A stretch of DNA of 42,412 nucleotides from Chitinophagaceae bacterium (GTDB taxonomy: Bacteria > Bacteroidota > Bacteroidia > Chitinophagales > Chitinophagaceae), in NCBI GenBank assembly GCA_025449935.1, contig JANWIJ010000063.1:1-42412 (forward strand). The letters run 5' to 3'. How positions within the stretch are numbered: position 1 is the first letter of the stretch; each line of letters begins with the position of its first letter. Below, piece after piece: positions 27,117 through 31,417 of the stretch. The translations under genes were made by a program, and so were the position numbers. Below the pieces are notes generated by a model. The model did not search any database, was not told the origin of the DNA, and was given only the letters and a program-made list of their open reading frames with translations.

Positions 27117-27302
27117 TCAGACACGGAGTCCTTTCAGGGAACTCAGTACCCCGAATGCCTTCAGCAACCAGATAACCACAGCAATGACAACTACTATGTT
27201 GAGAATGTTTTTGATCTTACGATCCATCGGAATATAGGTGTTCACGAGCCAGAGAAGTACCCCAACAACCACGAGGACAATTAAAATATTCAGCAGCGGC
27301 AT
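27117..27302 (-). CDS. Small two-helix membrane protein (Thivi_2564-type)
   Basis: 61 residues with two transmembrane helices (about 3-22 and 34-52) joined by a short basic loop (TYIPMDRKIKNILN). Size, PLLNILIVLVVVGVLLWLVN opening and layout fit the Thivi_2564-type small membrane protein family, of unknown function and often near stress genes. It is preceded by site R1 (27328-27392) with an exact TAnnTTTG -7 box (TATCTTTG) 25 nt before the start codon, so it is probably controlled by the same factor as the three other sites described in this region. Confidence 0.82.
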   Translation of the reverse strand: MPLLNILIVLVVVGVLLWLVNTYIPMDRKIKNILNIVVVIAVVIWLLKAFGVLSSLKGLRV

Positions 27303-27327: not shown

Positions 27328-27392
27328 CAAAGATACCTGATTTCAGGAGCTTACTGTTACAGAACCTTAGATCAGAGTTACATCATTCACAC
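27328..27392 (-). promoter_or_regulatory. Regulatory site R1: GTGTGAAT box, two TGTAAC half-sites and -7 box
   Basis: Read on the minus strand: GTGTGAATGATGTAAC, then a second TGTAAC whose first base is 21 nt after that of the first, then -7 box TATCTTTG starting 57 nt after the first G of the box. It lies directly upstream of the two-helix membrane protein gene. See the finding on R1-R4. Confidence 0.75.
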
Positions 27393-27565
27393 ATTTGAGT
27401 GGCCGGGAAGAATTTCACCTGCTCCTGAAACTTATTCATCCCGGAGTGCTTCTTGTATTTACCTGGTTGGGGAAGTTGGGGAAATTTTCTTCCCGGAATG
27501 CCGGGGCCAGGCCGGGCCAATATGCAAAATGAGCAATCCAATCCTGAAAAATCAATGACAATCAT
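27383..27565 (-). CDS. Possible small ORF downstream of site R2
   Basis: A 60-codon frame starting MIVIDFSGLDCSFCILARPG and ending ATQMCE. It is Pro/Lys-rich with an early Cys-x2-Cys. It begins 3 bp after the stop of the 14-codon frame and its last codons overlap the GTGTGAAT box of R1. There is no homology I recognise and no independent support for translation; it may be chance. Confidence 0.2.
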   Translation of the reverse strand: MIVIDFSGLDCSFCILARPGPGIPGRKFPQLPQPGKYKKHSGMNKFQEQVKFFPATQMCE

Positions 27566-27568
27566 TAT

Positions 27569-27613
27569 TTATTTTACTTTATCCTGTTCCTGTTCATAAA
27601 TTATACGGGCCAT
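27569..27613 (-). CDS. Possible 14-residue peptide ORF directly behind site R2
   Basis: An ATG at 27613 opens MARIIYEQEQDKVK and a TAA. It lies about 13 nt from the -7 box of R2, so the transcript would be nearly leaderless. The geometry resembles that of the 21-residue peptide behind R3. Very short; offered only because of the promoter context. Confidence 0.25.
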   Translation of the reverse strand: MARIIYEQEQDKVK

Positions 27614-27625
27614 AATAGAGTGCGG

Positions 27626-27690
27626 CAAAGATGAGATGATTTCAAACAGGGGTATTGTGGTATTATATCAATAGGTTACACAATTCACAC
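27626..27690 (-). promoter_or_regulatory. Regulatory site R2: GTGTGAAT box and -7 box
   Basis: Minus strand: GTGTGAATTGTGTAAC, then CACAAT at the position of the second half-site, then CATCTTTG starting 57 nt after the first G. It shares a TGAAATCA stretch with R1 just before the -7 box. Confidence 0.65.
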
Positions 27691-27891
27691 CTTTCAATGA
27701 ATTGGATTGGTATTGGGATGGAATGCAGGGTTAATACGTGGAAGTTATCAGAAATTAGGCTCAATGGCCTGCCGGGAATGAAACGTGACGCGAATATGCG
27801 TATATTTAGATAAGTATCCCGCTATATTTCAAAAGCTGATTCCAGTCTGCAAAATCACCTAAGAGTAAACAATTATAAATAGCCGAGTTTT

Positions 27892-28452
27892 TTGAAATTA
27901 TATATAAAAAATATGGTTTGCATCCGCTGCAAAATGGTAGTAAAGGATGAACTGACCAAATTGGGATTGCATTACAGGGCCGTAGACCTGGGCGAAGCAG
28001 ACATTGTGGAAAATCTCAGCATGGAGCAACAGGATAAGTTCAGGGAAGCGTTGTTACGATCAGGACTTGAATTAATGGATGACAAAAAAAGTGTGCTGAT
28101 CCAGCAAATAAAAAACGTAATAATTGAACTGGTGCATTATGCAGAAGAGCCACTGGCCATTAATTTGTCTGATTTTTTGAGCCAGAAGTTAAATCATAAT
28201 TACACCTACCTCGCCAATCTATTTTCGGAGGTCCAGGGTACCACGATTGAAAAATTCTTTATTGCACACAAAATAGAACGGGTAAAAGAATTGCTTGTGT
28301 ATAATGAACTCAACCTTACTGAAATTGCTTACCAGATGCACTACAGCAGCGTGGCGCATCTTTCGGCCCAGTTTAAAAAAGTGACCGGTCTTACTCCATC
28401 ACATTTCAAGCAATTAAGGGAGAAAAGACGCACCATGCTGGAAGATTTATAG
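27892..28452 (+). CDS. AraC-type transcriptional regulator with CxxC HMA-like N-terminus
   Basis: 186 residues. The N-terminal ~75 residues begin MKLYIKNMVCIRCKMVVKDE and have a ferredoxin-like pattern with a CxxC pair at Cys10 and Cys13 in the place used by heavy-metal-associated (HMA) domains. Residues ~85-180 are an AraC/XylS double helix-turn-helix (NHNYTYLANLFSEVQGTTIE, LNLTEIAYQMHYSSVAHLSA, FKKVTGLTPSHFKQLR). The start is a TTG at 27892: it restores the KLYIKNMVC strand that pairs with the CxxC loop, whereas the first ATG (27913) would remove it. AraC-type proteins bind direct repeats about 21 bp apart, the spacing seen in sites R1 and R3, so this is a candidate regulator of the R1-R4 sites (inference). 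Confidence 0.85.
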   Translation: MKLYIKNMVCIRCKMVVKDELTKLGLHYRAVDLGEADIVENLSMEQQDKFREALLRSGLELMDDKKSVLIQQIKNVIIELVHYAEEPLAINLSDFLSQKLNHNYTYLANLFSEVQGTTIEKFFIAHKIERVKELLVYNELNLTEIAYQMHYSSVAHLSAQFKKVTGLTPSHFKQLREKRRTMLEDL

Positions 28453-28470
28453 AAGTTAACGTCTTAAGAA

Positions 28471-28493
28471 GACAGCCCGATATCCCGGCTGTC
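28471..28493 (+). terminator. Hairpin after the AraC-type gene
   Basis: GACAGCC pairs with GGCTGTC around a 9-nt loop, 18 bp after the stop codon. It has no T tract; a small GTCTT/AAGAC palindrome lies just before and overlaps it. Confidence 0.45.
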
Positions 28494-28603
28494 ACCGGCT
28501 CAATACCAGTTGCCTCCGCGGGGATTGCAAATGTTCAGCATTTAATCCCGTTTCACCTGCAACAGCATCTGAACGGCTGCATAGAATTTAAAAAACGTGA
28601 ATT

Positions 28604-28825
28604 ATGAAAAGCAAAGGAAGACCCCGGGTTCGCCAGGTACAATTAAAGGATGGTTTTTACATTGAAGTTTGTAATAAAGGCGCCAAAAAGGGAATGAAAA
28701 TAAGAAGTGACGATAAGAAAACGATGGAAGAAACAGCCAACCTGTATAAAACGCACAAAGACGTGATTATCCACGGTGAATGCAAGGACGGGAAACTGAT
28801 TAGCGATGCCCGGGTTCCTTCATGA
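28604..28825 (+). CDS. Small basic hypothetical protein
   Basis: 73 residues, starting MKSKGRPRVRQVQLKDGFYI and continuing EVCNKGAKKGMKIRSDDKKT. Very basic, with alternating short strands and a helix (MEETANLYKTHKDVIIHGE). Similar short proteins occur as unnamed ORFs in Bacteroidota. It probably binds nucleic acid or a protein partner, which is inference from charge alone. It lies 151 bp after the AraC-type gene and just 4 bp before site R3, and it could be transcribed together with either. Confidence 0.7.
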   Translation: MKSKGRPRVRQVQLKDGFYIEVCNKGAKKGMKIRSDDKKTMEETANLYKTHKDVIIHGECKDGKLISDARVPS

Positions 28826-28829
28826 CAAA

Positions 28830-28894
28830 GTGTGAATTATGTAAGTTTTTGTGCCAGTCATGTAAGCGTACTCGATATAAAAGACTCATCTTTA
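28830..28894 (+). promoter_or_regulatory. Regulatory site R3: GTGTGAAT box, two TGTAAG half-sites and -7 box
   Basis: GTGTGAATTATGTAAG, then a second TGTAAG whose first base is 21 nt after that of the first, then CATCTTTA starting 57 nt after the first G. It begins 4 bp after the stop of the 73-residue gene and leads to a 21-residue membrane peptide whose ATG is 15 nt past the -7 box. Confidence 0.75.
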
Positions 28895-28908
28895 TCAACA
28901 CGTACACC

Positions 28909-28974
28909 ATGTCATTTTATTACTATCTTTTTTTAATCGTTTTGTTACTGCTCATTATTTTTTTCGCCAGGTAA
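28909..28974 (+). CDS. 21-residue single-helix membrane peptide
   Basis: MSFYYYLFLIVLLLLIIFFA then Arg and TAA. Nineteen of the 21 residues are hydrophobic or aromatic, enough for one membrane helix, with the only charge at the very end. It is too short for usual gene finding. Support comes from the position: it directly follows regulatory site R3, giving a leader of about 8 nt if transcription starts near 28901. It resembles the many tiny stress-induced membrane peptides of bacteria in size and hydrophobicity. The codons are ordinary. Translation is not proven. Confidence 0.5.
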   Translation: MSFYYYLFLIVLLLLIIFFAR

Positions 28975-29212
28975 CGTTCAACGGAAAAAGAATATCCCGG
29001 TAAAATTATTTGCGGAAGCACTAAAAAACGAAAATGGAGGTTTTTTTGAGGGAGCTGTTGTTCATTATAAAAATGCGCTCACAGCCAACCGGAGCGTCAG
29101 GTTTACCAGTAGCGGCCTGGAAAATAAAATCGTGGAGAAACTAAAAGTATTGCATACCGTGATAGAATATAAAAAATCACACGCTGGCTGCACGACCGGC
29201 AAGTTTCAATAA
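28970..29212 (+). pseudogene. Start-less remnant of a small helical protein gene
   Basis: An open frame from 28937 to a TAA at 29210-29212 has clear protein-like sequence from about 28970: NVQRKKNIPVKLFAEALKNE, then FFEGAVVHYKNALTANRSVR and NKIVEKLKVLHTVIEYKKSH. This looks like two helix pairs of a TPR-like domain, such as occurs in small Bacteroidota proteins of ~75 residues starting just before KNIPVKLF. No ATG, GTG or TTG is available in this frame upstream of the domain. The membrane peptide ORF ends at 28974 in the frame one base off, so a +1 shift there would join them; loss of the start codon is simpler. Treated as a pseudogene. Confidence 0.5.
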
Positions 29213-29306
29213 GTGAAAAATTCCAGTTTTGGGATTGGGAACCTGTTGAAAGTATCATGGCTGCTGGAATTCTTTGTTATGGTAACCAAAAATTAAAAGG
29301 CAACCT

Positions 29307-30023
29307 GTGAAAGTTCTATTCATCACCACGTCACATGATAAATTAGGAGAAACCGGCCGCCAGACCGGTGTATGGCTGGAAGAGCTCGCGGATCCTTATT
29401 ATATATTCAGGGAAGCAGGCGGGCAGATCACGCTTGCCTCTCCCGGGGGCGGCGAGGTTCCCCTGGATCCGAAAAGCCAGTCAATCATCCTGGCAACCCG
29501 GCATACAAAGATTTTCTTGAAAGATGAGGAGGCGATGAATCTTCTCACACATTCAACCCTGCTTCAGGAAGTGAAGGCGGATGATTTCGATATGGTATTT
29601 CTCCCGGGAGGACATGGCAGCATGTGGGATATTGCAGGTAATAAAATGGTAACCCGCTTACTGGAAGACTTTTACAGCAGTGGGAAACCTGTTGCAGCCG
29701 TAAGTCATGGTGTAGCCGGCCTGCTGGCATTACAAAATGACAATGAAGAATTTTTATTAAAAGGCAAACAAGTCACGGGCTTTAGTAACAGTGAGGAAGA
29801 AGCAGCGGGGTTGGCAGCCGTAGTACCGTTTTTATTAGAAACGGAGTTGCTTTCGATTGGCGCTTTTTTTAGCAAAGCGGCTGACGCTGTTAAGCATGTG
29901 GTCGTGGATGGTAATATCATTACGGGTCAAAACCCGGCGTCCTCGGGTGAAACAGCCCGGAAAGCACTTGCCTGTTTCCGGCAGCATGAACAGAAGCAAA
30001 TAAAACAACCGGCCCTGGATTAA
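29307..30023 (+). CDS. DJ-1/PfpI-family protein (HchA-like) with Ser at the nucleophile position
   Basis: 238 residues from a GTG start. Family landmarks: MKVLFITTSHDKLGETGRQT at the N-terminus with a GVWLEEL segment holding the conserved Glu (residue 25 or 26), DMVFLPGGHGSMWDI, and the nucleophile elbow AAVSHGVAGL. In HchA/Hsp31 and related glyoxalase III or deglycase proteins the elbow reads VCHG; here residue 133 is Ser (AGT, one base from Cys). The His that follows is kept. The protein could have lost Cys-based catalysis or use a Ser. Layout otherwise matches full-length, intact class I amidotransferase-like proteins. Located in the R1-R4 region, 95 bp after the start-less remnant. Confidence 0.85.
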   Translation: MKVLFITTSHDKLGETGRQTGVWLEELADPYYIFREAGGQITLASPGGGEVPLDPKSQSIILATRHTKIFLKDEEAMNLLTHSTLLQEVKADDFDMVFLPGGHGSMWDIAGNKMVTRLLEDFYSSGKPVAAVSHGVAGLLALQNDNEEFLLKGKQVTGFSNSEEEAAGLAAVVPFLLETELLSIGAFFSKAADAVKHVVVDGNIITGQNPASSGETARKALACFRQHEQKQIKQPALD

Positions 30024-30067
30024 AGCAGGGTGGCGACTTCCCCAAATGAGCAAGTACAACCCAGAAT

Positions 30068-30133
30068 GTGTGAATTATATAATTCCTTTTTCAAATTGTA
30101 GAACAATTACCAGTGAAAAACAAATCAACTTTA
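30068..30133 (+). promoter_or_regulatory. Regulatory site R4: GTGTGAAT box and -7 box
   Basis: GTGTGAATTATATAAT, TAGAAC in the second half-site position, then CAACTTTA starting 58 nt after the first G. It is the least conserved copy. It lies 45 bp after the DJ-1-type gene and leads to no ORF but to a terminator. Confidence 0.5.
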
Positions 30134-30206
30134 CATAGCCTTTCATATTTAAATTATTCATAGCGGTTGGTTTTGGTCAAGCCCCTGGTCTATCAGGGGC
30201 TTTTTG
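30134..30206 (+). ncRNA. Candidate small RNA transcribed from site R4
   Basis: Transcription from the R4 -7 box would start near 30140 and end at the terminator at 30179-30205, giving about 65 nt. The interval has no ATG and no open frame of any size. The 5' part is A/T-rich and single-stranded-looking (CATATTTAAATTATTCATAG), followed by the GC-rich terminator hairpin, a layout common for trans-acting small RNAs. The alternative is that the hairpin only terminates the DJ-1-type gene 156 bp upstream. Confidence 0.4.
30179..30205 (+). terminator. Intrinsic terminator downstream of R4
   Basis: AAGCCCCTG pairs with CAGGGGCTT around a 6-nt loop and is followed by TTT(G); the T run covers 30201-30205. 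A strong intrinsic terminator. Confidence 0.9.
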
Positions 30207-30274: not shown

Positions 30275-30640
30275 ATGGCAAAAGAAACCAAAATAGGCAA
30301 GCCCGATATTAACGAGGTGGAAAAATCAAAGGCCCACATTATTGTGGAAATCATTGAATATATGGCCAATGCAGTTGTGATCAAGACCATCATCAAGAAA
30401 TCAACCGGCAATATCAGCGTTATGTCGTTTGATGGCGGGGAAGGGCTGTCGGAGAAGACTTCGCCCTTTGATACTTTTTCCCAGATCATCGAGGGCAGGG
30501 CAGAGATCGTTATTGACAAAATATCACATATGCTTGAATCCGGCCAGGGTATTGTGATACCTGCGCATTCATCGAATTATATTAAGCCAAACGGGCGGTT
30601 CAAAATGGTACAGACAATTATTAAAAGCGGCTACGAATAA
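30275..30640 (+). CDS. Small cupin-domain protein
   Basis: 121 residues. From about residue 35 the sequence reads as a single double-stranded beta-helix: ISVMSFDGGEGLSEKTSPFD (cupin motif 1 region), FDTFSQIIEGRAEIVIDKIS, then LESGQGIVIPAHSSNYIKPN (motif 2). The usual metal-binding HxH of motif 1 is missing; a single His is kept in PAHSSNYI. The N-terminal 30 residues are charged and helical. Cupins of this kind often sense or bind small ligands or simply act as structural modules. The histidine kinase gene begins 39 bp downstream, so the two are probably co-transcribed. Confidence 0.82.
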   Translation: MAKETKIGKPDINEVEKSKAHIIVEIIEYMANAVVIKTIIKKSTGNISVMSFDGGEGLSEKTSPFDTFSQIIEGRAEIVIDKISHMLESGQGIVIPAHSSNYIKPNGRFKMVQTIIKSGYE

Positions 30641-30679: not shown

Positions 30680-31417
30680 ATGCAGGAACCAGATCAAACT
30701 CCCGAAGTGAACCCATTAACAATTACTCCGCCTGCCCAACCTCCTCCGGTTATCTGGAAAGATCCGGCAGACGAGTTTGTTTACTTCCTGGCCCATGAAG
30801 TTCGTAACCCGTTAAACAATATCAAATTATCCATCGAGGCCCTTGAGTTTGCGATAAAAGACAGCAGCCTGCAGGTTTACCTGGATATCATCAGCCGGAA
30901 TTCCATTCGTATCAATGTGTTAATTGATGACCTGTTGAAGCACCAGGAAACGGACGTGGTGCCTGTTGAACTCTATTCAATTTACCAGATGCTGGATGAA
31001 GTGCTTGAGATAGCAGAGGATCGTATAAGGCTTAAGAATATCAGGGTCACCAAAAGCTATCAGGCCCGGGACTGCAAAATAAGCGTGAATGCCCCGAGAA
31101 TGAAAATCGCATTGACGAATATCGTCATCAATGCCATCGAAGCAATGGTCCCCGGCAACGGGGAACTGAAGCTGGTTACCAAATTAAAAGAAGATGTATA
31201 CATCGTACAGATTGAAGACAATGGATGCGGGATCGCAAAAGAACACCTGGTATTTATATTCCAGCCCTATTTTACCAACAAACCCGGCGGGTTAGGCCTG
31301 GGATTGTCCACCACGTATGATATACTCCGGGCAAACCGTGTCAGGGTAAATGTCGAATCAGAAGTAGGAAAAGGAACGCAATTTATGCTGCAGTTTGAAG
31401 AAATAATTTCCCCCTGA
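30680..31417 (+). CDS. Soluble orphan sensor histidine kinase
   Basis: 245 residues with no membrane helices. A Pro-rich N-terminal segment is followed by the HisKA H-box FLAHEVRNPLNNIKLSIEAL with His39 as the phospho-acceptor. The ATPase domain has N-box NIVINAIEAM, G1 box EDNGCGIAKE, F-box IFQPYFTNK and G2 box GGLGLGLSTTYDIL. There is no PAS, GAF or HAMP domain, so input must come from a partner. The upstream cupin gene, 39 bp away, is the natural candidate. No response regulator is found in the window, so the kinase is an orphan here. Strong tandem hairpins follow. Confidence 0.92.
   Translation: MQEPDQTPEVNPLTITPPAQPPPVIWKDPADEFVYFLAHEVRNPLNNIKLSIEALEFAIKDSSLQVYLDIISRNSIRINVLIDDLLKHQETDVVPVELYSIYQMLDEVLEIAEDRIRLKNIRVTKSYQARDCKISVNAPRMKIALTNIVINAIEAMVPGNGELKLVTKLKEDVYIVQIEDNGCGIAKEHLVFIFQPYFTNKPGGLGLGLSTTYDILRANRVRVNVESEVGKGTQFMLQFEEIISP

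Follow-up and report, generated by a model that had tools for sequence, protein, structure and literature searches.

Recurrent promoter boxes in the Bacteroidota as candidate binding sites of AraC-type proteins with a copper-chaperone-like predicted domain

The stretch of DNA analysed here (the window: 42,412 nucleotides (nt) from a Chitinophagaceae bacterium, contig JANWIJ010000063.1 of assembly GCA_025449935.1) carries four box-containing sites, R1 to R4, grouped around the gene for an AraC-type protein that we call HMA-AraC. R1 and R2 face a gene for a two-helix membrane protein, R3 faces a reading frame for a short membrane protein and a DJ-1/PfpI gene, and R4 is followed by a putative small RNA, a cupin gene and a histidine kinase gene (Table 1). 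The first G of the box lies 57, 57, 57 and 58 nt from the -7 octamer in R1, R2, R3 and R4, respectively. A second TGTAAC or TGTAAG starts exactly 21 nt past the first in R1 and R3, and at the same place R2 has CACAAT and R4 has TAGAAC. An initial annotation of the window, made from its letters, had described the four boxes with their positions, strands and distances, together with the second copies and their degenerate counterparts, and all of this was found as claimed. From their sequences, the four sites would start transcription at about 27323 (R1), 27621 (R2), 28899 (R3) and 30138 (R4). We consider it very likely that R1 to R4 are promoters activated by HMA-AraC, and the box is very probably the binding site of this protein family across the Bacteroidota.

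Table 1. Sites, genes and predicted transcript around the HMA-AraC gene, in window coordinates. aa, amino acids.
Feature	Position	Strand	Description
Two-helix membrane protein, R1 target	27117..27302	(-)	61 aa; NCBIfam Thivi_2564, NF041949, E 3.1e-23
Site R1	27328..27392	(-)	distal half-site GTGTGAATGATGTAAC; proximal TGTAAC at +21 nt; -7 element TATCTTTG; 52 bits; E 1.9e-9
Site R2	27626..27690	(-)	distal half-site GTGTGAATTGTGTAAC intact; proximal degenerate (CACAAT); -7 end CATCTTTG; 41 bits; E 5.4e-4
HMA-AraC, proposed regulator	27892..28452	(+)	AraC-type protein, 186 aa; between R2 and R3; CxxC (C10, C13)
Site R3	28830..28894	(+)	GTGTGAATTATGTAAG; second TGTAAG at +21 nt; -7 element CATCTTTA; 45 bits; E 4.5e-8
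R3 target, N-terminal part	28909..28974	(+)	first 21 aa of a conserved membrane protein of about 95 aa; frame interrupted in the window
R3 target, remainder	28976..29173	(+)	another frame; matches L086:13003-13287, tblastn E 1.9e-22
DJ-1/PfpI protein	29307..30023	(+)	406 nt downstream of R3; possible distal target
Site R4	30068..30133	(+)	GTGTGAATTATATAAT; proximal degenerate (TAGAAC); -7 element CAACTTTA; 50 bits; E 1.2e-11
Predicted small RNA from R4	30138..30206	(+)	conserved 5' part; terminator hairpin 30180-30201; T run; CTCATAAGCAGTTAGTTTTGGTT core
Cupin protein	30275..30640	(+)	121 aa; behind the R4 small RNA
Histidine kinase	30680..31417	(+)	follows the cupin gene; in other genera its homologues are direct targets

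The box is rare in the genome to which the window belongs. In these 3.5 Mb GTGTGAATNNTRTAA occurs five times, four of them within the 2.8 kb of R1 to R4, and the backwards pattern occurs once. Allowing one mismatch gives 16 occurrences against six for the backwards pattern, so that single-mismatch boxes are mostly background. The full pattern, including the -7 element, matches four times, and the genome holds six sites at E<1e-3, four of which (R1 to R4) lie within 3 kb; R4 is the top-scoring site under a search model whose training set includes R4 itself. The two further sites precede a fatty-acid desaturase gene (C97) and a gene for a 107-aa membrane protein (C25). The dozens of matches expected at first in this genome are thus not there; other genomes of the family reach 29.

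Across 147 Chitinophagaceae genomes, that of the window among them, the full pattern of box and -7 element gave 58 matches in 28 genomes, and the same pattern read backwards, which served as control, gave none. In 47 aligned sites the second half-site is conserved at positions that lay outside the search pattern (T in 45, R in 47, T in 46, A in 45 and A in 47). The second TGTAA is followed mostly by C (32/47) and then A (34/47), and A and T are frequent just before the first G (40/47 and 33/47). Since these matches had been found with a spacing window, the spacing was retested on 172 boxes located by the box part alone in 80 named loci. The A of the -7 element lies 58 nt from the first G in 19 of them, 59 nt in 120 and 60 nt in one (140/172 boxes in total), and any other distance from 40 to 123 nt was seen at most twice. 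The initial annotation had called for more matches than in a control and for a spacing kept in relatives, and both are borne out here. A chance origin of the box pattern was rejected in view of the genome counts of the box and its backwards pattern, the full-pattern matches against a control of zero and the fixed spacing in other loci.

At its fixed place the -7 element of these sites reads A[ACT]CTTT[AG]; the first base of the element is mostly C, not T, and the last is G or A. The housekeeping -7 element of Flavobacterium, TAnnTTTG, spans -12 to -5 in the portion of the work cited (PMC9723704). Judged by its letters, the element of the box promoters would be a weak version of this Bacteroidota housekeeping element, and a sigma-54 or extracytoplasmic function (ECF) promoter was rejected for the box sites on account of a -7 element that looks like the housekeeping type. 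Counted from the Flavobacterium position, the first G would lie near -70. The two TGTAAC copies would span roughly -60 to -55 and -39 to -34, with the proximal half-site overlapping the -33 region. As in operators of the AraC/XylS type, the half-sites are direct repeats two helix turns apart, with degenerate proximal copies in R2 and R4. The suggestion that the four sites share one activator-type architecture, with two direct half-sites on one helix face, is in this way supported computationally by the 21-bp spacing.

The C-terminal part of the protein encoded between R2 and R3 matches Pfam HTH_18 (E 5e-16) and HTH_AraC (E 4e-8). In an AlphaFold model built from 59 sequences (mean predicted local distance difference test score, pLDDT, 90.5) the predicted helices of this part make up an AraC/XylS-type DNA-binding domain, with two helix-turn-helix motifs in seven helices, and Foldseek matches it to the DNA-binding domains of AraC, MarA, SoxS and AdpA. 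AraC/XylS proteins usually, though not obligatorily, have a cupin-like N-terminal sensor domain. HMA-AraC does not have one, and a Pfam search of its N-terminal part found neither a cupin domain nor an HMA domain. Foldseek matches the N-terminal part to the copper chaperones Atx1/HAH1, weakly but repeatedly (E 0.06-0.11, template modelling (TM) score by target length 0.58-0.70), and one unrelated-looking entry scores similarly in the same search. This copper-chaperone-like domain may act as the sensor of the protein.

The box is also linked to the AraC gene by position. Of the 41 site loci in the initial set, 21 contain HMA-AraC homologues, which in some cases lie directly behind a site. The training set of a weight matrix comprised 66 boxes from the window and 40 further regions, which together hold 56 of the 58 full-pattern matches; the regions G086:C127 and G086:C163 were left out (labels with G denote genomes, those with L denote loci). 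In 12 genomes without a full-pattern match, the flanks of a close homologue (14-18 kb) held 28 sites of at least 25 bits, in 10 of the 12 loci, and their reversed sequence held none. Twenty loci with more distant homologues held 26 sites of at least 14 bits, in 19 of the 20, against none in reversed sequence; these sites often have a diverged A part, for example CTGTAAATCTTACAA. The 80 named loci were chosen by protein alone: of 575 relatives, the 80 best were taken (59-83% identical). They come from Chitinophagaceae, Flavobacterium, Bacteroidales, Cytophagales, Mucilaginibacter and others; two of them, L218 and L281, are the same DNA as the training loci L076 and L066. A site of at least 14 bits is present in 76 of these 80 loci, with 201 sites in 1.2 Mb and none in the reversed sequence. 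The sites peak beside the AraC gene: they lie just upstream in 23 loci, just downstream in 32 and divergently in 10, and at least one of these arrangements occurs in 61 of the 80. Limnohabitans is a betaproteobacterium, and a locus labelled with that name (L248) has a Bacteroidota-type AraC gene and boxes, possibly through a binning error in the assembly.

Box and protein also co-occur. In a sample of 296 genomes from across the phylum (site cut-off E<=1e-4, protein cut-off E<=1e-40), HMA-AraC is encoded in 43 of the 45 genomes with a site versus 95 of the 251 others (Fisher's test, 5e-14, kinship ignored), and in the family sample it is encoded in 77 of 83 versus 35 of 64 (p 1e-7, kinship likewise ignored). 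The earlier proposal of the AraC-type protein at 27892 as the regulator thus gains computational support, both from the boxes beside its relatives and from co-occurrence. Several observations weigh against the assignment. The co-occurrence tests take no account of phylogeny and depend on cut-offs, and the initial protein search scored only some candidates in many genomes. Six family genomes (G024, G121, G082, G078, G056 and G105) have boxes, with one to eight sites each at E<=0.01, and no HMA-AraC at the cut-off, as is also the case for G332 and G374 of the phylum sample. A profile search of the six found only AraC-domain matches (best E 1e-15 to 3e-13). The proteins that contain them have about 290-330 aa, and the window's genome encodes proteins of this kind too. 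All six assemblies are fragmented (150-510 contigs) and two are from one genus; a real loss or replacement of the regulator in such genomes is possible. Of the 64 family genomes without a detected box, 35 encode HMA-AraC, and the C97 site is without a clear -7 element. Finally, box divergence follows the DNA-binding domain (partial r 0.16) more weakly than the N-terminal domain (0.29), and co-divergence is therefore no proof of contact.

The relatives of HMA-AraC fall into two types according to the motif of their N-terminal part. Among 150 distinct proteins from 161 scanned loci, 56, including that of the window, have CxxC and 94 have SxxC. None of the 56 CxxC genes has a site upstream; likewise, no site on the strand of the window's gene lies just upstream of it. 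Of the 56, 36 have a site directly downstream. A copper-type P-type ATPase gene adjoins 13 of the 56, and in 11 of these a site lies directly behind the AraC gene; all 13 cases come from 20 more distant Chitinophagaceae loci, with the identity of the ATPase assigned on one example. Copper-responsive regulators next to copper ATPases, such as CueR, CsoR and CopY, are MerR, CsoR or CopY proteins. The CxxC proteins resemble them in that they can adjoin a copper-type ATPase with a box behind the AraC gene, but the known regulators are not AraC proteins with a chaperone-like domain. SxxC genes have a site upstream in 34 and downstream in 36 of 94 cases and never adjoin the ATPase. A hybrid histidine kinase gene adjoins 39 of the 94 (L048, L061, L066, L084, L085 and 34 others), in 30 cases with a box before the AraC gene, and none of the 56 CxxC genes; the kinase of L084 has PAS, HisKA, ATPase and receiver domains. 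Several of the SxxC-linked kinases share a repetitive 'ANKELAFQ'-like N-terminus. Metal or thiol sensing in one branch of the family is suggested by the predicted chaperone-like fold with its CxxC and by the neighbouring ATPase genes, and kinase signalling in the SxxC branch by the neighbouring kinases.

Three characterised systems have a comparable layout, and the comparisons that follow draw on portions of the papers cited. The direct repeats araI1 and araI2 of Escherichia coli are spaced by 21 bp. AraC binds araI1 more strongly than araI2 and activates via araI2 (PMC4760080); a similar pair of adjacent proximal operators, unequal in strength, is proposed here. The predicted fold of HMA-AraC is without the sugar-binding domain. 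XylS, a dimer of double helix-turn-helix domains, recognises two direct repeats, each composed of an A box, 6 bp and a B box (PMC5481539). The box resembles the XylS promoter Pm in its distance of 10 bp from A to B, start to start, in the two direct repeats and in the position of the proximal repeat by or over a polymerase element. It differs in that little is left of the proximal A box, the promoter looks like the Bacteroidota -33/-7 type and the targets are many; moreover, XylS senses benzoates whereas the N-terminus of HMA-AraC resembles a copper chaperone. The two 15-bp blocks of MtlR at PmtlE of Pseudomonas fluorescens resemble each other and span -72 to -58 and -50 to -36 (PMC4514859), close to what is expected of the present sites (about -70 to -55 and about -49 to -34), but MtlR acts at one catabolic promoter with mannitol as inducer.

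By analogy with these systems, two HMA-AraC monomers would bind directly to the two direct half-sites, 21 bp or two helix turns apart. In the distal half-site, GTGTGAAT would form the A part and TGTAAC, whose start lies 10 bp further on, the B part; the proximal half-site, centred near -36, would consist chiefly of a B part overlapping the -33 region. Bound in this way, the dimer could bring the housekeeping polymerase to the weak -7 element, (C/T)AnCTTT(G/A). In such a scheme CxxC regulators would respond to metal or thiol stress, and SxxC regulators would act through their own box and through hybrid kinase signalling.

A proximal half-site over the -33 region could equally block polymerase, and HMA-AraC might therefore bind the box chiefly as a repressor while another factor activates. 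We regard this as unlikely. XylS (PMC5481539) and MtlR (PMC4514859), with the same layout in the portions cited, are both activators. The -7 elements depart from TAnnTTTG at the first base and the distance from box to promoter is constant within 2 nt, and a weak -7 element at a constant distance is what would be expected of an activator that touches polymerase.

Slightly less probable still is that the box is bound by some other factor, such as a response regulator of the LytTR type that receives its signal from the hybrid kinases, and that the AraC gene is just one target of that factor. LytTR regulators use direct repeats about 21-22 bp apart, so that the repeat spacing alone fits them as well as it fits AraC proteins. 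The hybrid kinases beside 39 of the 94 SxxC genes and the box genomes without HMA-AraC also speak for such a factor. However, the constant neighbour of the box is the AraC gene, with boxes in 76 of the 80 loci chosen by protein; the kinase is beside none of the 56 CxxC genes, yet 36 of these have a box right behind them; and the 10-bp distance from A to B in the distal half-site fits XylS, as far as the cited portion of that work describes it. That the boxes are copies left by a local duplication or a mobile element, with no regulatory role, is suggested by the four of six genome sites within 3 kb but is most improbable, as the sequence between box and -7 element varies among sites, the same architecture is found in many genera ahead of genes of different kinds, and across the phylum the positions of the boxes track the AraC gene.

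With HMA-AraC as the preferred activator, the genes behind the boxes indicate what it may control. Sites of at least 25 bits numbered 161, in 67 of 81 scanned loci, and their 155 first downstream genes were grouped by single linkage; the first downstream open reading frame (ORF) was picked by rule, so that some assignments are wrong, and families were assigned on one example each. The biggest clusters are CsbD-like proteins (17 sites, of which about 14 are CsbD by eye) and the 121-aa cupin protein (17), followed by the AraC protein itself (12), P-type ATPases (8) and histidine kinases (6). Further clusters comprise ice-binding proteins (6, the example with a type IX secretion system (T9SS) signal), Thivi_2564 membrane proteins (5, counting R1 and R2 of the window) and a fatty-acid desaturase family (5). 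OmpA, lmo0937, MlaE and a second desaturase family are among the smaller groups. Regulon size is uneven: at E<=1e-3, G089 has 29 boxes, G079 has 27 and G044 has 23, versus six in the window's genome. CsbD, cupin and short membrane proteins, together with desaturases and kinases, recur among the targets, and this set looks like an envelope and general stress response. The initial description as a 'small-gene regulon' is too narrow, as copper P-type ATPases, kinases, desaturases, ice-binding proteins, OmpA and the regulator itself are also among the targets.

The targets in the window recur elsewhere. Homologues of the R1 target follow sites in three loci, 16-20 nt from the predicted start in L070 and L084 and 376 nt in L085; R2 lies 317 nt upstream of the R1 target gene in the window and has no clear target. 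The 'tiny ORF' first seen after R3 proved to be a 21-aa fragment that begins a conserved membrane protein of about 95 aa, intact copies of which are found behind sites in L086, L084, L124 and L142. DJ-1/PfpI homologues follow sites at a distance of 75 nt in L072 and of 768 nt in L076. The cupin homologue of L078 matches Pfam Cupin_2 (E 7e-7), and the window copy itself has no family match in Pfam or NCBIfam. The targets at C97 (the desaturase, Pfam E 1.8e-16) and C25 also have homologues behind sites in other genera. A 73-aa protein encoded at 28604-28825 has no Pfam or NCBIfam match; the weight matrix finds no box ahead of its gene in the window, and a homologue that shares 68% identity with it over 63 aa stands directly behind a box in L086.

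Transcription from R4 would run first through what appears to be a conserved small RNA and then through the cupin and kinase genes. The leader behind it ends in a hairpin and a T run at about 30206, and kindred leaders follow box promoters in L084, L085 and L086, 22-24 nt past the predicted start (15 nt in the window). A second leader form, GGTTTTTCATAGGATATTGG with a hairpin, begins at box promoters in L068, L076, L078, L086, L124 and L126. A small-RNA model built from five sequences, the window copy included, and roughly calibrated, finds matches at E<=0.1 in 140 of the 147 family genomes, many of them full-length with E near 1e-12; the window copy, being part of the model, scores 68 bits (E 6.3e-15). 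In 38 distinct copies every cell of the eight-pair stem pairs, and seven of the eight pairs are changed on both sides. Four of five measures exceed all 500 shuffles, and the number of pair types does not (109/500). The probable small RNA reported earlier behind R4 is supported computationally. No match was found in Rfam 15 for the R4 transcript or for the ten small-RNA loci tested, and the literature searched, with most subscription journals outside its scope, showed nothing on the subject.

The box accounts for few members of this small-RNA family. In a survey of 60 copies (L291-L350) of about 150 listed, an AraC box lies upstream of two, and the box would thus drive only a few members of a wider family; a sigma-54-like TGGCA-TTGC stands within 155 nt upstream of 28 of the 60, and in random stretches the figure is 26 of 1200. 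A strict scan for terminators downstream of every site gave 7 of 358 against 8 in the control, so that small RNAs are no general feature of the regulon, and the leader family came from homology. In L298, L329, L341 and L349, the last being another copy in the window's own genome, the core lies 14-31 nt downstream of an Hsp20 gene (all four match Pfam HSP20), as if the small RNA also served there as the 3' end of the Hsp20 transcript.

We tentatively extend these results, with slightly less than even confidence, to a phylum-wide stress regulon under paralogous AraC activators with a copper-chaperone-like sensor. The ancestral type would be CxxC and associated with a copper ATPase; the SxxC type would have lost one metal-binding cysteine and become self-activating and coupled to hybrid kinases. 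In the Chitinophagaceae the same factor would also drive some small-RNA copies, others apparently being under sigma-54 promoters or ending Hsp20 transcripts. AraC/XylS activators are a known kind of regulator, but a copper-chaperone-like domain combined with this operator and with targets across the phylum is apparently undescribed: the literature searched, again with most subscription journals outside its scope, contained no description of HMA-AraC or its regulon, in keeping with the view taken at the outset.

To our knowledge, transcription control in the Bacteroidota is poorly mapped beyond sugar use. The present analysis provides a candidate regulator with its operator, promoter geometry and target list across many genera, and with it an entry to stress genes such as those for CsbD, the cupin protein and the short membrane proteins. 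It also points to a small-RNA family, unmatched in Rfam, that occurs in most of the Chitinophagaceae genomes searched, and it suggests that a copper-chaperone fold may serve as a sensor on an AraC protein.

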